Below, in pieces: positions 25,316 through 34,214 of a stretch of DNA of 34,214 nucleotides. The notes below the pieces were generated by a model. The model was given only the letters and a program-made list of their open reading frames with translations, was not told where the DNA came from and made no database searches. The position numbers and the translations under genes were made by a program. Every line of letters begins with the position of its first letter. Within the stretch, counting starts at the first letter, position 1. Where the stretch lies: positions 60,619 through 94,832 of the forward strand of contig NZBI01000005.1 of the NCBI GenBank assembly GCA_002687825.1. Reading direction: 5' to 3'. The stretch comes from Nanobdellota archaeon (GTDB lineage Archaea; Nanobdellota; Nanobdellia; SCGC-AAA011-G17; ARS1403).

Positions 25316-25422
25316 TATACCTAAGTACTATCAAGATAATACACAGATATAGATAAGAAATATTTAAATATTACCTAAATTAACTTAGATTTAGTAAAAT
25401 AGACCAAAGGTATACCTAAGTA
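25316..25422. promoter_or_regulatory. repeated TACCTAA sites flanking the RHH gene promoter (candidate operator)
   Basis: TATACCTAAGTA occurs at 25316-25327 and again at 25411-25422, the second copy ending on the A of the start codon. A third site, TTACCTAAATTAACTTAG at 25371-25388, carries TACCTAA plus an inverted CTTAG just upstream of the probable TATA box (25390-25399). TACCTAAGTA is itself near-palindromic. The layout suits binding by the RHH protein encoded here, that is, autoregulation. Confidence 0.5.
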
Positions 25423-25865
25423 TGAACAAAACACAAGAAAGAGCATTAAACTGGCTTATTCAAGAAGGACACAAAAAACAAGATATTACATTTAAACAGA
25501 GTTCTCCATGTTTTTTCATAAAAGATAAAAAATATGATGTTAAACGTTTATACGGAAATCAAATAATTTTCTACAACAATCAATATAAACAACTCAAAAA
25601 ATTCCCAAACACAACAATTTTAGTCTTTAGGGATAATGAATCCTCTCCTTATCAAAAAATAAATTTTAGCGAAATAAAAGACCTCCCTTCTAGATACAAA
25701 GATATTGAAATCAATTGGGTAGACATCTCAACTCAAGTAAGAACTCTAAGAATTTCAGATAAAACAAAAGAAAGATTACAAGAACATGGCAAAATGGGAG
25801 AAGATTTTGACAATTTAATCAATCGTCTACTAGACACATTAGAAAAACATGAAAGAAAGAAATAA
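25422..25865 (+). CDS. PD-(D/E)XK-like plus ribbon-helix-helix protein
   Basis: This 147-residue protein has two parts. Residues 106-138 (VRTLRISDKTKERLQEHGKM, then GEDFDNLINRLL) match archaeal ribbon-helix-helix DNA-binding domains. Residues 1-100 read like a small restriction-endonuclease-like fold, with QSSPCFFIKDKKYDVKRLYG and then NNQYKQL followed by TTILVFRDN. D39-V-K41 stands where the (D/E)-x-K pair falls, but the expected first Asp is Cys30, so nuclease activity may be lost. That fold assignment is from pattern memory only. It overlaps the giant membrane protein by 17 nt and is divergent from moxR. Its promoter carries repeated sites fit for autoregulation. Confidence 0.72.
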   Translation: MNKTQERALNWLIQEGHKKQDITFKQSSPCFFIKDKKYDVKRLYGNQIIFYNNQYKQLKKFPNTTILVFRDNESSPYQKINFSEIKDLPSRYKDIEINWVDISTQVRTLRISDKTKERLQEHGKMGEDFDNLINRLLDTLEKHERKK

Positions 25866-28800
25866 GCTAGGAATAAGTATTTTACTTGTATTCATTTTAT
25901 TAGTCACTAGTATAACTGCTCAAGAAAAACCTCCTGAAGAAGATGGTACTTATGTAACGAGCTCAGATATTCAATCTCAATTCTCAGATCCATCAATTAA
26001 ATTATCATTTAGATCTTGGGGAGAAGGAAGAGAAACAACAATTAATTTAGATGATTATTTCATAGGACAAAGAAAATCTGATAATAGATTCCTTTTCATA
26101 TCGCCTCCAGAAATAGATATTACCATAGATCAAGAAACAAGTTTAGCAGTTTTAAAATCTAGGGGTAGGTGGATTGGGACTAAAGAAGTAGTTTTCACTC
26201 AATCCTCCATTTATAATTTAGAAAAATCAATTATCGAATTAGAGGATTTTGAATCAGAATTAATCAAAAAACGTATTCCTCCAAAAATCAAAAATGAAAT
26301 AGAAACACTAAGAGATGCTCCAGCATTTAATATGTTAGAAAACATAATTGATAGTTTAGAAAAAAGAAAAAGTCAAAAAACACCAGAGATTACAGCAAGA
26401 TTTGCACAAAATAGATTAAGTGTAAATGTAGGAGAAGATATCGATTTAAGTGTTGGAATTCAAACCGAAACTCAAGGAATCAAAACTAAAAAACCAGAAT
26501 TAAGTTTAAACATAAGACCAGGACAAGTAGATGGTGCTGAAGAAGAATTAGAAGAATCAGCATTTCCAATTGTACTTCTTTTCCCAATAATATTAATCGG
26601 TGGAAGTTTACTCCTAGTTTTAGGGATCTATATTGTGAGGAACAAGAGAAGTATAAAACAGATGGTTCCTAAAGTAAAACAAACAAAACCAGAGTTATTA
26701 GCTAAAAATATCAAAATAATAGCAAATTATAGAAATGAAGTTAAAGAAGTAAAATCAAAATTAAATTCTATACCAATAGAAAAATCAGCTAAGAAATCAT
26801 TTGAAATAATCCAAAACTTCTTTGATACTTTAACAAATCCAAATTTCGAATTTACATATTCAGAAATAAAAAAAGAAATTTTAGAAGAAGGATTAAATAA
26901 ACAGACAGAAAACTTCTTAATCAAATTCTCAAAAGAATTAGTAGATTTCAAATACAGCAACCAAGCAGCATCAAAACAAGGGTTATCTCAAGTATTAAAC
27001 AAGGTAAATAAGGCAATAGAAATGTCTGTAAAAGATCTATCTAAGATACAATTACAAGAAGAAGTAAAATTAGAAAAGAAAAGACCAATAATAAATTTAG
27101 TAGTCAAATTAAGAAATTATCTAAAAGGTACAGAATTACCAAAAACTCCTGAGAAAAAAGATGAAAAAGTCCATTCAACTAAAAAGAAACATTCAACTTT
27201 AAGCACAAGCATCTTCAAAAGAATCTTTTCTTTCTCAAAAAGAACTTCTGCTAAAGAAGTAGAGAAAATAGCATTACAAAAGTACGAAGCTAAGGAAAGA
27301 AAGAAAACAGAAAATAGAACTAAAATTGAACACTTCTTAAAAGAATTCTTCCATAAAAATTTTGGATTATTCAAAACACAAAAAGAGATAAATCAAATCA
27401 GAGAAAACAAAAGAAAGATAGCTTTAGCCAAAGAAAGAGCAAAATTAAAGATCATAGAAAAGAAAAGAAAAGAAAAACAGTTAAGAAAATTACAAAGAAG
27501 ACATGCTATTAAGAAATTCTTCCATGATATTTTCGGATTATACAAAACATCAAAAGAAATAGAATCAGAGAAAGAAGAAAGAAGAAAATTAAAATTAGAA
27601 AAAGAGAGAATTGCAAGAGAAATTAAGTTAGCAAAACTTAGAGCTAAAAAGAAAAAATCAGATGAATTCAAAAATTTCTTCAGAATCTATTTTGGATTAT
27701 TTAAATCAAAAGAAGAAGTAGAAAAAGAAATCAGAACAAGATTATTAGCAAGACAAAAGAAAAAGATAGCAAGACAACAAGCGACATTAAATTTCTTCAG
27801 AAAATTAGGTTTATTCAAAACAGACGGAGAAATACAATCAGAAAGGGAAGCTAAATTACTAAAAGAAAGATTAAAAGAAAGATTAAAAGAAGAGAAAAGA
27901 AGAGAAAAATTAAGAATAAGAACTACTAAAAAAAGAGCAAGAATAGCATTCTTCCATGATAATTTTGGCTTATTCAAAACACAAGAAGAAAAAGAGACCA
28001 TAATTAGAGCAAAATTCGAAGAAACAAGAAGAGAAGAAAACAAAAAATTAAGAGAAAAGAGAGAAGTTCAAAGAGAAAAAGAAGAAAAAGAAAGATTGAA
28101 AGAAAGAGAAAAAACAAGAATTCAAGAATTAAAAAATAAAATAAAACTACAAAAAAGAAAAGCTTTCTACTCCTTCATACATAATACTTTAGGAATAAAA
28201 ACTCTAAAAGAAAAACATTTAGAAAAAATAAGGGAAGCAAGATTAAAATTAAAAACGGTAAAAGAGAAAAGAAAAATCAAAGAGGAAAAACAACAAAGAT
28301 TTAGATCCTTCTTCCATGATAATTTCGGATTATATAGGACTCATGAAGAAAAAGAATATTATGCAATTAAAAAATTAAAAGACAAAAGAAGAAAAAGCAT
28401 TGCAAGAAGAAAGGCTTTCTTAACATATTGTCATGACAAGTTAGGATTATTTAAAACAAAGTCAGAAATAGAAAATGAGAAAGAAAGAAAACTAAGATTA
28501 GAAACAAAAGTAAAGAAAGAAAAAATAAAAACAAAAATAGAAAGAAGAAGAGCTTGGAGAAAGTTTTTCCACAATAATTTTGGATTATATAAAACAAAAG
28601 AAGAATTACAATTATTAAGAGAAAGAGAAAGAGAAAAAAGAATAAGAAGTCAAAATAAAAAAATAAGAGAAGCAAAAGCAAGTTTAACAAAGAGACATCT
28701 AAGAAACAAAGCAATCCATAAATTCTTACACAACTTAGGTTTCTTCAAAACAAAAGAAGAACTACAAAAATTAAGATTGGAAAAAAGACTAGATAAAAGA

Positions 28801-30525
28801 AAGCATGAAAGATCAAAGCTAAGGAATTTAAAAAGAAGAGAAAAGAGACAGTTAGAAATTAAGAAATATTTACATGATCATTTCGGATTATTCAGAACAA
28901 GAGATGAAAAGATAAAGTTAGAAATAAAAAATAGGAAAGAAAAACAAAGAAAGAGAGAATTAAAGCTTAAACTAGAATTTGAAAAAGAGAAAATCAGAAA
29001 GAAAAGAAGAGAATTAATCCACGGTTTCTTACATGATAAATTAGGATTCTTTAAAACATACAAAGAAAAACAGAAAGAAGAAAGAAGAAAGAAAGTAAAA
29101 AAATTAGAATTAGAAAATAAAGTAACCGAAAGATTTAGCTTCTTCAAAAAATTATTCAAAAAAGATGAAATAACAAAAAGTGACGAACTTCATGTTTTAA
29201 TAAAACTAGAACAAAACGCCATAAGAAGAGGGGAAATAAAAAAAGCAAAACAATTGCAAAGAAAAATTAATAAAATATACAAGAAAATAAACTTCCAAAA
29301 AAACCATCCAACCTTAACAAGAGACTATAACATAATAAAAAATAGCTTAAAATCTTTTAAATCAGTAGAATCTCAAACCTCATTCACTTCAAAAATTAAA
29401 TCCCTATTTTCAAAAGAGCCAGAAAAGAATAAAATAGATGAAATTCTTTTCTTGATTAATAGATGTGAAAAATCTCTAAATTCCAACAGAAGAAGAGACT
29501 CCCAAGATTTATTTGCAAGAATAGTAAATATGTATTCAAAATTAAATAATACATCTAAAAAAATAATAGAAAAAAATATCTTAAATCTAAGATCTGAAAC
29601 CGCAGCAATCCTAGTAAAAGAATCCTTAGAAAAGGCACATGAATCTTTAAGAGAAGGAAGAATAAAAGAAGCGAAAACACTATACAAAGAAATAAAGCAA
29701 AACTTCTATTATCTCCCATTAAGACACAGAGAAAATTTACTAGAACATAAAAATTCATTATCTGAAAAATTACAAAAAAAGAAAAAATTCATAATTTCAT
29801 TGCCAAGAATACCAATTCCCGAATTCAATATCTTAACATTTTACAACTTACAAAAAGAAAAAATGATGGACAAATTTAAAGAATTAAAGATAGTTTCAAA
29901 AGTAAAACCCCTAAAAGAAAAAGAATCTCTTACAAACTATTTACTAGCAAGAAAACCCAAATTCATTTCAATTCAAACCAATACAATACCAAAGTCTCAA
30001 ATCAGAAAAAACAGAAAGAGAACAGTTAGAGAAATTTTCAAACATATTGATATTGGCCATTCTCATTTAAAAAGAAAAGATCATTTAAGAGCCAAAGAAA
30101 AATACAAAGAAGTTTTAGAACTATTCAAAGATTCCTCTCATGAACTTCCATTAGAATTCCAAAAATTAGTTCATAGAAAATTAAAACCTCTGAAAGAAAA
30201 AATATTGCACGTTAGTCTTAAAAATTTTATGTCAGAAATAAATCTAGCAATCAAAAAGGGAGAGCATTCGACAGCAAAGGAACTAGAAAAAAAAGTAAAG
30301 TCGATATACTCACATTTATCCAAAACTGAAACTCTCCCTTTCACACCTCCCAAAAGCAGTTTCAAACAAATAAATGATTTAATTAATTCACTAGATCCTA
30401 ATTCAAAAAAAGCAAATCAAAATTATAAAAAAATAACTAGTATCTACAACACTTTATCAATTCGACAAAAAAGACAAGTTTATTCTAAAATGTTAAAAGC
30501 CTACAAAGAAATAGTTGAGAATTAA
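25849..30525 (+). CDS. giant membrane protein with about twelve FFHDxFGLFKT cytoplasmic repeats
   Basis: This 1558-residue protein starts with a signal peptide or anchor (LGISILLVFILLVTSITAQ). An extracellular region of about 210 residues follows, including a beta-domain (ITARFAQNRLSVNVGEDIDL). A membrane helix lies at about 239-262 (FPIVLLFPIILIGGSLLLVL). The rest faces the cytoplasm. Residues about 490-1075 alternate FFHDxFGLFKT-type motifs with Lys/Arg/Glu-rich helices likely to be coiled coil. Residues about 1105-1558 form TPR-like helical pairs (EAKTLYKEIKQNFYYLPLRH, RAKEKYKEVLELF). I know no described family with this layout. It overlaps the nuclease-like/RHH gene by 17 nt and faces away from the MoxR operon. 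A scaffold or cytoskeletal tether at the membrane is a plausible inference. Confidence 0.85.
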   Translation: MKERNKLGISILLVFILLVTSITAQEKPPEEDGTYVTSSDIQSQFSDPSIKLSFRSWGEGRETTINLDDYFIGQRKSDNRFLFISPPEIDITIDQETSLAVLKSRGRWIGTKEVVFTQSSIYNLEKSIIELEDFESELIKKRIPPKIKNEIETLRDAPAFNMLENIIDSLEKRKSQKTPEITARFAQNRLSVNVGEDIDLSVGIQTETQGIKTKKPELSLNIRPGQVDGAEEELEESAFPIVLLFPIILIGGSLLLVLGIYIVRNKRSIKQMVPKVKQTKPELLAKNIKIIANYRNEVKEVKSKLNSIPIEKSAKKSFEIIQNFFDTLTNPNFEFTYSEIKKEILEEGLNKQTENFLIKFSKELVDFKYSNQAASKQGLSQVLNKVNKAIEMSVKDLSKIQLQEEVKLEKKRPIINLVVKLRNYLKGTELPKTPEKKDEKVHSTKKKHSTLSTSIFKRIFSFSKRTSAKEVEKIALQKYEAKERKKTENRTKIEHFLKEFFHKNFGLFKTQKEINQIRENKRKIALAKERAKLKIIEKKRKEKQLRKLQRRHAIKKFFHDIFGLYKTSKEIESEKEERRKLKLEKERIAREIKLAKLRAKKKKSDEFKNFFRIYFGLFKSKEEVEKEIRTRLLARQKKKIARQQATLNFFRKLGLFKTDGEIQSEREAKLLKERLKERLKEEKRREKLRIRTTKKRARIAFFHDNFGLFKTQEEKETIIRAKFEETRREENKKLREKREVQREKEEKERLKEREKTRIQELKNKIKLQKRKAFYSFIHNTLGIKTLKEKHLEKIREARLKLKTVKEKRKIKEEKQQRFRSFFHDNFGLYRTHEEKEYYAIKKLKDKRRKSIARRKAFLTYCHDKLGLFKTKSEIENEKERKLRLETKVKKEKIKTKIERRRAWRKFFHNNFGLYKTKEELQLLREREREKRIRSQNKKIREAKASLTKRHLRNKAIHKFLHNLGFFKTKEELQKLRLEKRLDKRKHERSKLRNLKRREKRQLEIKKYLHDHFGLFRTRDEKIKLEIKNRKEKQRKRELKLKLEFEKEKIRKKRRELIHGFLHDKLGFFKTYKEKQKEERRKKVKKLELENKVTERFSFFKKLFKKDEITKSDELHVLIKLEQNAIRRGEIKKAKQLQRKINKIYKKINFQKNHPTLTRDYNIIKNSLKSFKSVESQTSFTSKIKSLFSKEPEKNKIDEILFLINRCEKSLNSNRRRDSQDLFARIVNMYSKLNNTSKKIIEKNILNLRSETAAILVKESLEKAHESLREGRIKEAKTLYKEIKQNFYYLPLRHRENLLEHKNSLSEKLQKKKKFIISLPRIPIPEFNILTFYNLQKEKMMDKFKELKIVSKVKPLKEKESLTNYLLARKPKFISIQTNTIPKSQIRKNRKRTVREIFKHIDIGHSHLKRKDHLRAKEKYKEVLELFKDSSHELPLEFQKLVHRKLKPLKEKILHVSLKNFMSEINLAIKKGEHSTAKELEKKVKSIYSHLSKTETLPFTPPKSSFKQINDLINSLDPNSKKANQNYKKITSIYNTLSIRQKRQVYSKMLKAYKEIVEN
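27325..29075 (+). repeat. about twelve diverged FFHDxFGLFKT repeats
   Basis: Core motifs begin near 27340, 27510, 27670, 27790, 27940, 28170, 28305, 28420, 28560, 28715, 28860 and 29020. Protein forms include FFHKNFGLFKT, FFHDIFGLYKT, FFRIYFGLFKS, FFRKLGLFKT, FFHDNFGLFKT, FIHNTLGIKT, YCHDKLGLFKT, FFHNNFGLYKT, FLHNLGFFKT and YLHDHFGLFRT. The period averages about 50 residues (range about 38-75). The linkers are charged helices, and the coding strand is strongly purine-rich. Confidence 0.88.
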
Positions 30526-32054: not shown

Positions 32055-32461
32055 ATATCCAATATAATCCTAGCCTTCCAACCATCTTTAGTTTTCTTAA
32101 GAAAATAATTATGTAACGTAATAGCCTTAACATCCACTTTTAATTCATGTTTTTCAGGATTAATTTTCTCTCCTTCAACAACAGCCTCTAATTTATCATC
32201 TTTAATTTTTATAGAAAATTTACTAAACAACATATACTTAGCATCTTTCAAATATATTAACTCTTCAACAAAATCAAACAATAATTTTCCAACATCATCA
32301 TTCTTCAACTTAATCTTTTTCTTTATTTTCCTCTTAACTTTTTTTAAGTCGCATTGAATTTCAAAAGTAGCCAAAGCAACATTCTCAAATAACTTATTCA
32401 ATGTTTTACCATTAGCTTCAAACATTACATCTGCCGTATGATCTATAAATTTGTATTTCAT
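32051..32461 (-). CDS. archease, RtcB activator
   Basis: This 136-residue archease promotes RtcB guanylylation and multiple turnover. The family signature is FIDHTADVMFEANGKTLNKLF at the N-terminus (the D-H-T-A-D metal-binding residues), LLFDFVEELIYLKD in the middle and DVKAITLHNYFLKKTKDGWKARIILDI split across the C-terminal strands, ending in the conserved Asp-Ile. Unusually it is not in line with rtcB. It is the last gene of an operon with an AbrB antitoxin and a RelE toxin, overlapping the toxin stop by an ATGA junction. Confidence 0.93.
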   Translation of the reverse strand: MKYKFIDHTADVMFEANGKTLNKLFENVALATFEIQCDLKKVKRKIKKKIKLKNDDVGKLLFDFVEELIYLKDAKYMLFSKFSIKIKDDKLEAVVEGEKINPEKHELKVDVKAITLHNYFLKKTKDGWKARIILDI

Positions 32462-32706
32462 TGTTCATCCTTATGATATAAATCTAACAAAATAACCTTA
32501 TTTTCTTCCTTTAAATACTTATAAGATAAACGAAATGGAGAAACATAAACCTCTCTAGTTCCTTTTCTAACATTTTTCATAGGTTTGCCAATTTCTGGAT
32601 TCTCAACAATTTTTTTAACTTGCTTTTTTATTTTTTCTTTAGTAAATTCATCTCTTATTTTAGATATTTTTCTTAAAAAATTCGACTTAAATTCTGTTTC
32701 TAGCAT
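32458..32706 (-). CDS. RelE/ParE-family toxin
   Basis: This 82-residue toxin of the RelE superfamily typically cleaves mRNA on the ribosome. The fold is visible as an N-terminal helix pair (SNFLRKISKIRDEFTKEKI), NPEIGKPMKNVRKGTREVYV, FRLSYKYLKEENKVILLDL and the archaeal RelE ending YHKDEQ. Basic and aromatic residues (R, K, Y near the C-terminus) are those used by the family for RNA cleavage. The ATG overlaps the antitoxin gene by 7 nt and the stop overlaps archease by 4 nt, so all three are translationally coupled. Confidence 0.88.
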   Translation of the reverse strand: MLETEFKSNFLRKISKIRDEFTKEKIKKQVKKIVENPEIGKPMKNVRKGTREVYVSPFRLSYKYLKEENKVILLDLYHKDEQ

Positions 32707-32966
32707 TTCTCCAACTCTTTAAGAAATTTATCTGCAGGCATAGAAATAAATTCACCCCTATCATAAGCCTTCCACGCTTCTTCTGTTCTTCTAGCAAACT
32801 CGATATCTTCCTTCAATTGTTTATCCATTGCACTAGCTTTTTTTATAATGAGTTTATCTTCACTCTGTATAATAACCAATTTTTCACCTTCCTTAATGTC
32901 CTTCCTCATTTCACTAGGAATAACAACTTGCCCTTTTGAACTCATTTTAGTTATATCAATATTCAT
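32700..32966 (-). CDS. SpoVT-AbrB domain antitoxin
   Basis: This 88-residue protein has an N-terminal SpoVT/AbrB swapped-hairpin DNA-binding domain: MSSKGQVVIPSEMRKDIKEG with ITK before it, then LVIIQSEDKLIIKKA. The C-terminal 40 residues (EDIEFARRTEEAWKAYDRGE and the FLKELEKC end) form the toxin-neutralising tail. It heads the antitoxin-toxin-archease operon. A perfect inverted repeat between its TATA box and start codon is a ready-made operator for autorepression. Confidence 0.9.
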   Translation of the reverse strand: MNIDITKMSSKGQVVIPSEMRKDIKEGEKLVIIQSEDKLIIKKASAMDKQLKEDIEFARRTEEAWKAYDRGEFISMPADKFLKELEKC

Positions 32967-33016: not shown

Positions 33017-33082
33017 AATATATCAAATATCAAAACAATAACAAAAACATTTATATATAACCATGTATAACAAATATATCAA
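33017..33082 (+). promoter_or_regulatory. promoter of the small RHH gene with flanking direct repeats
   Basis: TTTATATATAA (33050-33060) is centred 27 nt before the ATG at 33082. AATATATCAA occurs at 33017-33026 and at 33073-33082, the second copy ending on the A of the start codon. This is the same geometry as in the 25422 cassette, though the sequence is AT-rich and chance is possible. Confidence 0.45.
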
Positions 33083-33216
33083 TGGGTAAAGAAAAGGTTA
33101 CCACAATTAGAGTTCTAGAATCAACAAAGTATCAGTTAGGAGAATATGGAAAAAAGAATGAAACTTACGATGATATAATCAAAAGACTAGTAGAGGAGGT
33201 GCTAAATGAAAAATAA
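33082..33216 (+). CDS. 44-residue ribbon-helix-helix protein
   Basis: This is a free-standing RHH DNA-binding domain: MGKEKVTTIRVLESTKYQLG, then EYGKKNETYDDIIKRLVEEV. It aligns with the C-terminal domain of the 25422 protein (T-I/L-R-V/I, T-K-x2-L, G-K-x2-E-x-Y/F-D, I-x-R-L). It is short like antitoxin or autorepressor RHH proteins, but no toxin follows. Instead its last 11 nt overlap the start of a secreted repeat protein. Control of its own transcript and of that surface gene is the likely job. Confidence 0.85.
   Translation: MGKEKVTTIRVLESTKYQLGEYGKKNETYDDIIKRLVEEVLNEK
33195..33201 (+). promoter_or_regulatory. strong Shine-Dalgarno GGAGGTG inside the RHH gene
   Basis: GGAGGTG ends 4 nt before the ATG at 33206. 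It lets the surface protein be translated from the RHH transcript and is the best ribosome-binding site in the window. Confidence 0.7.
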
Positions 33217-34214
33217 CATCTTCAAATTAATTTTAGTAATTTTAATCTTAATGATTACAGTACAAACTGCATTTTCATCAGATTTAATGGCTTTAGAAGC
33301 AAACATTTTCGATAACACAGGAGCACCTTTAACAGGAAATTTAACTGTAGAAATCTATGATGCTTTAACAGATGGAACCTTAATTTACAATTCAACAAAC
33401 GATTTCATAGATAACATCACAGATGGAAAAGTAGATGTTATGCTAGGTTCCGGTTCAGTACCATTAAATTTAACTTATGGAGAAAGATATTTCATGGATA
33501 TTTTCGTAAATGATGAAGATATTAATTTCTCAGGAGAAGGTAGACAAGAATTCACATCTCCAATTGGAAATATTACTCTAAACAAATTAAACTTTTCAAC
33601 TTCATTAATTCCAGAAGCTAATGTTACTTTCGATATAGGATCCTCTGAAAGGTACTTAAATAATTTATATGTTCAAACTTTAAACATCTTAACCCAAATA
33701 ACAACATCCCAAATAGCTACTAATGCAATTACTTCAGCTTTAATAGCAGAACAAACCATAACTGCAGATGATATAGCAACTGATGCAATAAACACAACTC
33801 ATATTTTAGACGGAACAATAACCTCAGATGACATTGCAGATACCAGTATTAATGCTTCTCATATCGTATCTACTTTAGACGTCACTAACTACACTGCCGG
33901 CACCCAGGTAACCGTAAGTGGACATGTTATCTCCTCCAGCGCCATACCAGCTACCAATGTTGCTTTCTTAAACGAATCCTGGCTTAACAACACTTACGTG
34001 GAACTAGAAGGGGGGGATACTATCTTAGGAGCTTTAGCAGTAAATGGTTTGTTAACAATTGGCAACTTAGTCACCGGCTTCGTAAACACCACCCATATCT
34101 TAGATAGAACCCTCGGAAGTGATGATCTAGCTGACTCCAGCATCAACACTTCTCTAATCTTAGATAGAACAATAACCTCGGATGACATTGCAGATACCAG
34201 TATTAATGCTTCTC
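33206..34214 (+). CDS. secreted repeat-containing surface protein (3' end outside window)
   Basis: The frame is open from the ATG at 33206 to the window edge (336 codons) and is incomplete. A signal peptide (FKLILVILILMITVQTAFSS) is followed by a beta-domain (ANIFDNTGAPLTGNLTVEIY), a hinge (PEANVTFDIGSSERYLNNLY), then repeats of the type TITSDDIADTSINASHI. These resemble the ITSADIADG repeats of phage-tail-like and adhesin stalks. A 46-bp DNA repeat recurs 354 bp apart. From about 33885 codons shift to C-ending forms (acc, gcc, tcc, agc), unlike the A/T-ending codons before, suggesting a recombined segment. It is coupled to the RHH gene by an 11-nt overlap. Confidence 0.8.
   Translation, partial: MKNNIFKLILVILILMITVQTAFSSDLMALEANIFDNTGAPLTGNLTVEIYDALTDGTLIYNSTNDFIDNITDGKVDVMLGSGSVPLNLTYGERYFMDIFVNDEDINFSGEGRQEFTSPIGNITLNKLNFSTSLIPEANVTFDIGSSERYLNNLYVQTLNILTQITTSQIATNAITSALIAEQTITADDIATDAINTTHILDGTITSDDIADTSINASHIVSTLDVTNYTAGTQVTVSGHVISSSAIPATNVAFLNESWLNNTYVELEGGDTILGALAVNGLLTIGNLVTGFVNTTHILDRTLGSDDLADSSINTSLILDRTITSDDIADTSINAS
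33815..33860 (+). repeat. 46-bp direct repeat, copy 1, in the surface protein
   Basis: It matches 34169-34214 at 45 of 46 positions (one A/G difference in cctcA/Ggatg). It encodes TITSDDIADTSINAS. The offset of 354 bp is 118 codons, so the frame is kept. Confidence 0.85.
34169..34214 (+). repeat. 46-bp direct repeat, copy 2, in the surface protein
   Basis: This is the second copy of the 33815-33860 element, running to the window edge, so the repeat may extend further. Confidence 0.85.

Follow-up and report, generated by a model that had tools for sequence, protein, structure and literature searches.

The window, a 34,214-nucleotide stretch of DNA (G000:C5:60619-94832) from an archaeal genome of 775 kb in 25 contigs, ends with a small gene that runs into a gene for an exported protein. 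The small gene (33082..33216, plus strand) encodes a 44-amino acid tail-less ribbon-helix-helix (RHH) protein of the Pfam family DUF7557, a probable autoregulator, assigned by profile match, predicted helices and alignment. The second ORF (33206..34214, plus strand), which shares 11 nt with the first, encodes the 5' part of a fibre-like protein with a hydrophobic N-terminal signal, a conserved beta-rich N-terminal domain and degenerate repeats TITSDDIADTSINAS. Contig C5 (94,832 bases) stops at the end of the window and cuts this ORF, so that the full length of the protein is not readable; since the contig end falls within the degenerate repeat, the assembly probably broke on it. The Shine-Dalgarno sequence of the exported gene, GAGGAGGTG (33193..33201, plus strand), lies within the RHH coding sequence. 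A TATA box, TTTATATATAAC (33050..33061, plus strand), is kept in four genera and stands 21-32 nt 5' of the RHH start codon, a distance at which the transcript probably has almost no leader. It is flanked by two copies of the operator-like repeat AATATATCAA on the plus strand, one conserved 5' of the TATA box (33017..33026) and one ending on the A of the RHH ATG (33073..33082).

The 44-residue protein passes the cut-off of DUF7557 (PF24434) narrowly, with 25.3 bits against 25, and scored 23.7 bits in the genome-wide search. In a monomer model, thus without the dimer strand, its predicted secondary structure is RHH-like, with helices at residues 13-22 and 29-43 after an extended stretch (pLDDT 76.6). 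Foldseek comparison of this small model with the PDB gave no match, and PDB sequence and fold searches returned nothing useful; the model of the fibre N-terminal domain (pLDDT 56.7) was too poor to serve as a fold-search query. There are 0 residues after the DUF7557 domain, the toxin-binding region of type II antitoxins being absent, and no toxin match was found for the downstream gene. The neighbouring genes are the housekeeping genes RtcB and archease, in a synteny maintained across genera. An AbrB/MazE-like antitoxin and RelE/ParE-like toxin pair occupies the minus strand at 32458-32966, between this cassette (cassette 2) and the archease gene.

A similar arrangement (cassette 1) is found further upstream in the window. 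A 147-amino acid protein (25422..25865, plus strand) carries a C-terminal DUF7557 domain at residues 107-145 (31.9 bits), and its gene overlaps by 17 nt that of a long exported coiled-coil protein (25849..30525, plus strand). The operator-like repeat TATACCTAAGTA is present on the plus strand at 25316..25327 and at 25411..25422, where its last letter is the A of the RHH ATG, and this cassette contains the only two occurrences of TACCTAAGTA in the 775-kb genome. The original prediction, that both cassettes consist of an RHH gene whose end overlaps the start of an exported-protein gene and that the two RHH domains align well, is borne out by the ORFs, the profile matches and an alignment that also took in two relatives, in which the domains of cassettes 1 and 2 are 33% identical. 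The histories of the two cassettes are not alike. Cassette 1 is intact in seven of the eight genomes of its family, the whole RHH gene being present and the pair retained; in cassette 2 the partner is swappable.

Direct repeats of 12 and 10 bp had also been predicted to end exactly on the A of the RHH start codon, and they do so in both cassettes of this genome. As a conserved rule, this position fails in three relatives (G002, G004, G005), where it is a nearby motif that is conserved. Start-codon-anchored repeats of 10 and 12 nt each had p ~0.003 against shuffles, and at 339 other gene starts in this genome the anchored repeat never exceeded 9; for cassette 2 in this genome alone only the anchored test was significant, the longest-repeat test being not significant (p 0.19).

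Comparison of upstream regions revealed promoter repeats kept between genera in four RHH families. In cassette 2 the TATA box ATTTATATATAAC and the AATATATC elements are common to G000, G002, G004 and G005, and the repeats span these four genera, less clearly in G002 and as 18-bp tandem repeats in G004 and G005. The promoter of cassette 1 has between two and seven TACCTARGTA-like sites (at most two mismatches) in seven genomes, often 10-11 bp apart; none of 338 background gene starts has at least three such sites, a count that describes rarity and is not an independent test, as the motifs were picked from the same sequences in which they were later counted. In a distant RHH family, ACTAAGTAA is present in five genomes, both close to the TATA box and at the start codon, and a third family has GTAAC/GTTAC pairs 10 bp apart and one at the start codon in three genomes. 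The helical spacing of these promoter sites suggests cooperative binding.

The conserved N-terminal domain of the fibre is present in 41 of the 378 genomes of the class, and the upstream gene was read and tallied by hand for 43 near-complete copies. An overlapping small DNA-binding gene precedes the fibre gene in 11 of them (p ~1e-6 against the background, in which 16 of 389 genes overlap a small upstream gene of any kind), with the class partly assigned by eye and including sub-threshold Pfam matches. These eleven comprise the RHH gene of the window, a 57-amino acid RHH (G000 C17 and G003), a 47-amino acid RHH (G251), RHHs of 48-51 amino acids from the distant family (G331, G276, G196 and G246, each with an 11-nt overlap) and winged helices (G377, G238 and G319); for several of the small upstream proteins the Pfam match is absent or sub-threshold, and RHH then denotes a sequence pattern. 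Six further fibres are preceded by an ORF6N, AlbA_2 or larger HTH protein, or by an in-frame RHH fusion (G002), and in one family the larger DNA-binding proteins overlap the start of the fibre gene. The coupling is therefore not obligatory: in the remaining 26 of the 43 copies, no DNA-binding gene overlaps that of the fibre. Unrelated small regulators have thus taken the position before the fibre gene several times.

The reverse search started from the distant tail-less RHH family, which is present in 18 of the 181 genomes of that archaeal family. The downstream gene could be read for 13 close members, and in 12 of these it encodes an exported protein (p ~2e-9), which is either the fibre, with or without its N-terminal domain, or a pilin-like membrane protein. 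In two exceptional cases the fibre gene is broken (G323) or the gene lies 37 nt downstream without overlap (G442). The pilin-like protein follows the RHH gene at L186, L188, L190, L192 and L194, and this family is therefore not tied to fibres. Taken with the fibre survey, the reverse test indicates that either member of the pair is exchangeable while the arrangement persists. The predicted recurrence of the module is thus supported across several archaeal families, in which tail-less RHH genes of unrelated lineages overlap genes for exported proteins and have conserved repeats in their promoters.

The arrangement had further been proposed to be something other than a toxin-antitoxin pair. The main rival to that proposal is that the RHH protein is an orphan antitoxin, left from a type II pair inserted at a hotspot, which still autoregulates and overlaps the fibre gene by accident. 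Most of the DUF7557 proteins read are indeed antitoxins overlapping toxin genes, and toxin-antitoxin genes are abundant at the fibre locus of relatives. In the 30 loci read, DUF7557 proteins with at least 22 residues after the domain adjoin small toxin-like genes in nearly all cases, mostly of RelE/ParE type and usually with an overlap of 13 nt; the other two DUF7557 genes of this genome (79 and 72 amino acids) belong to ordinary toxin-antitoxin pairs. Proteins with a tail of at most four residues have an exported neighbour in cassette 1 (four relatives) and in cassette 2, the sole exception being the orthologue of the cassette 2 RHH in G005, whose end overlaps by 4 nt the PIN-like gene that directly follows. 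This exception would suit an orphan antitoxin, but the PIN genes of G005 have small convergent partner genes of their own. The promoter repeats of the RHH gene are moreover retained in four genera, and tail-less RHHs unrelated to this one stand before genes of the same fibre family and before those of other exported proteins. Because of the tail rule and of this recurrence, the orphan-antitoxin reading is weakened and we consider it unlikely. At the two loci of the window, the missing tail and the exported partner support the proposal. Gene overlap, considered as a diagnostic of the module, was rejected, as DUF7557 antitoxins overlap their toxins in the same geometry; the diagnostic features are the partners and the anatomy.

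The overlaps could also reflect mere compaction of a small genome with a coincidental exported partner, since 18% of the genes in the background, ~330 kb of this one genome read with a simple ORF caller, overlap their upstream neighbour. In the same background only 4.1% overlap an upstream gene of at most 100 amino acids, and such an overlap is absent from all 60 signal-peptide genes that lie outside these loci; with the enrichments of both surveys and the conserved operator-like repeats, this makes compaction alone very improbable. That the cassette is a viral or proviral module, consisting of the tail fibre of an archaeal virus and an RHH repressor, is more doubtful still: viruses often have RHH repressors and fibres that bear chaperones, and a Peptidase_S74 lies at the end of the fibre locus in one relative, but the fibre has a signal peptide, no relative was found in IMG/VR and the syntenic neighbours are housekeeping genes.

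We therefore favour, with a probability of roughly 0.7, an autoregulated tail-less RHH switch to which a surface fibre would be translationally coupled. The RHH protein is a relative of toxin-antitoxin antitoxins minus the toxin-binding tail, and its dimer is predicted from the promoter sequence to bind the repeats that surround the TATA box and start codon of its gene, thereby repressing or limiting its own transcript. The exported fibre gene would share this transcript. With its start codon overlapping the end of the RHH gene and its Shine-Dalgarno sequence within the RHH frame, translation of the fibre would follow that of the RHH protein, and the outcome could be a self-limiting or switch-like dose of a putative surface fibre. 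These tiny uncultured organisms are believed to spend their lives attached to other archaeal cells. If the fibre acts in host attachment, a small regulator placed on its gene repeatedly and independently would offer a direct handle on attachment control, in the form of predicted operators and a 44-residue protein. The tail rule further suggests that antitoxin-type domains, once without the toxin-binding tail, may become ordinary regulators.

A limited literature search found no paper on such an RHH-fibre module. Regulators of the PapB/PapI type (PMC12388093 for PapB) and FaeA-like regulators are comparable in that a small DNA-binding protein heads the operon of the surface fibre that it controls; they are not RHH proteins, serve bacterial chaperone-usher fimbriae and show no orthology. 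In the present module the regulator gene runs into that of the fibre itself, and its place is taken by unrelated regulators. CdrS of haloarchaea (PMC7439475, PMC8406309) is likewise a short archaeal RHH encoded by the co-transcribed upstream gene of an operon, but its partner is ftsZ2, a cell division gene, instead of an exported fibre, and the parts of these papers that we consulted do not describe a gene overlap. Type II RHH antitoxins (PMC4803016), among them DUF7557 members beside RelE- or MazF-like toxins, share the RHH domain, the expected autoregulation and the downstream overlap; they have a C-terminal toxin-binding part, whereas the RHHs described here lack it and adjoin an exported protein. 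TrcR (PMC10272220) is an autorepressing RHH that binds over its own promoter and start site, as is predicted here, but it is cyanobacterial and controls a tRNA operon.

The fibre locus is moreover a hotspot in relatives. Toxin-antitoxin, ORF6N, AlbA_2 and YhcG genes stand before the fibre, and behind each of them comes an incomplete copy of the fibre 5' end. In G002 and G007 (L066, L067, L068) these form repeated units of a gene and a truncated fibre 5' end, with the full fibre gene last; the array genes are AbrB-like, ORF6N, AlbA_2, YhcG and PIN with a small convergent gene. A separate Woesearchaeota contig (L175) has the same array pattern with AlbA_2. Site-specific, integron-like insertion of the array units was considered and rejected, as the variable truncation points of the 5' copies make a single fixed site unlikely; these points would fit homology-based insertion on one side with imprecise joining on the other. 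A speculative scenario is that the locus is a cassette-exchange system, in which each new unit, a regulator or toxin-antitoxin gene with a fresh fibre 5' end, would enter the fibre gene and bring it under a different control; the displaced 5' ends would stay behind in truncated form and may be a reservoir for switching host-attachment fibres.

Several minor observations concern these loci. At L066:1-2397(-) an RHH is fused in frame to an exported fibre, which would place the RHH on the cytoplasmic side of the signal sequence. In G063, the Peptidase_S74 lies in the ORF that follows an interrupted fibre ORF; the fibre gene of the window is cut before its C-terminus. Elsewhere in the genome of the window, G000:C7:11647-14565 (L153) encodes another long exported protein, of 972 amino acids; by eye, its end looks like a fibre chaperone domain. 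Tiny convergent ORFs of about 39-65 amino acids beside PIN-like genes (L069:15666-15785(-), L069:16428-16547(-), L066:4764-4961(+) and L070:6575-6721(+)) share a helical motif and are possible opposite-strand antitoxins. Finally, two RtcB genes (L067:7458-10358 and L069:10379-13282) are ~2x the normal length, which suggests inteins, and LAGLIDADG-like ORFs are found nearby.
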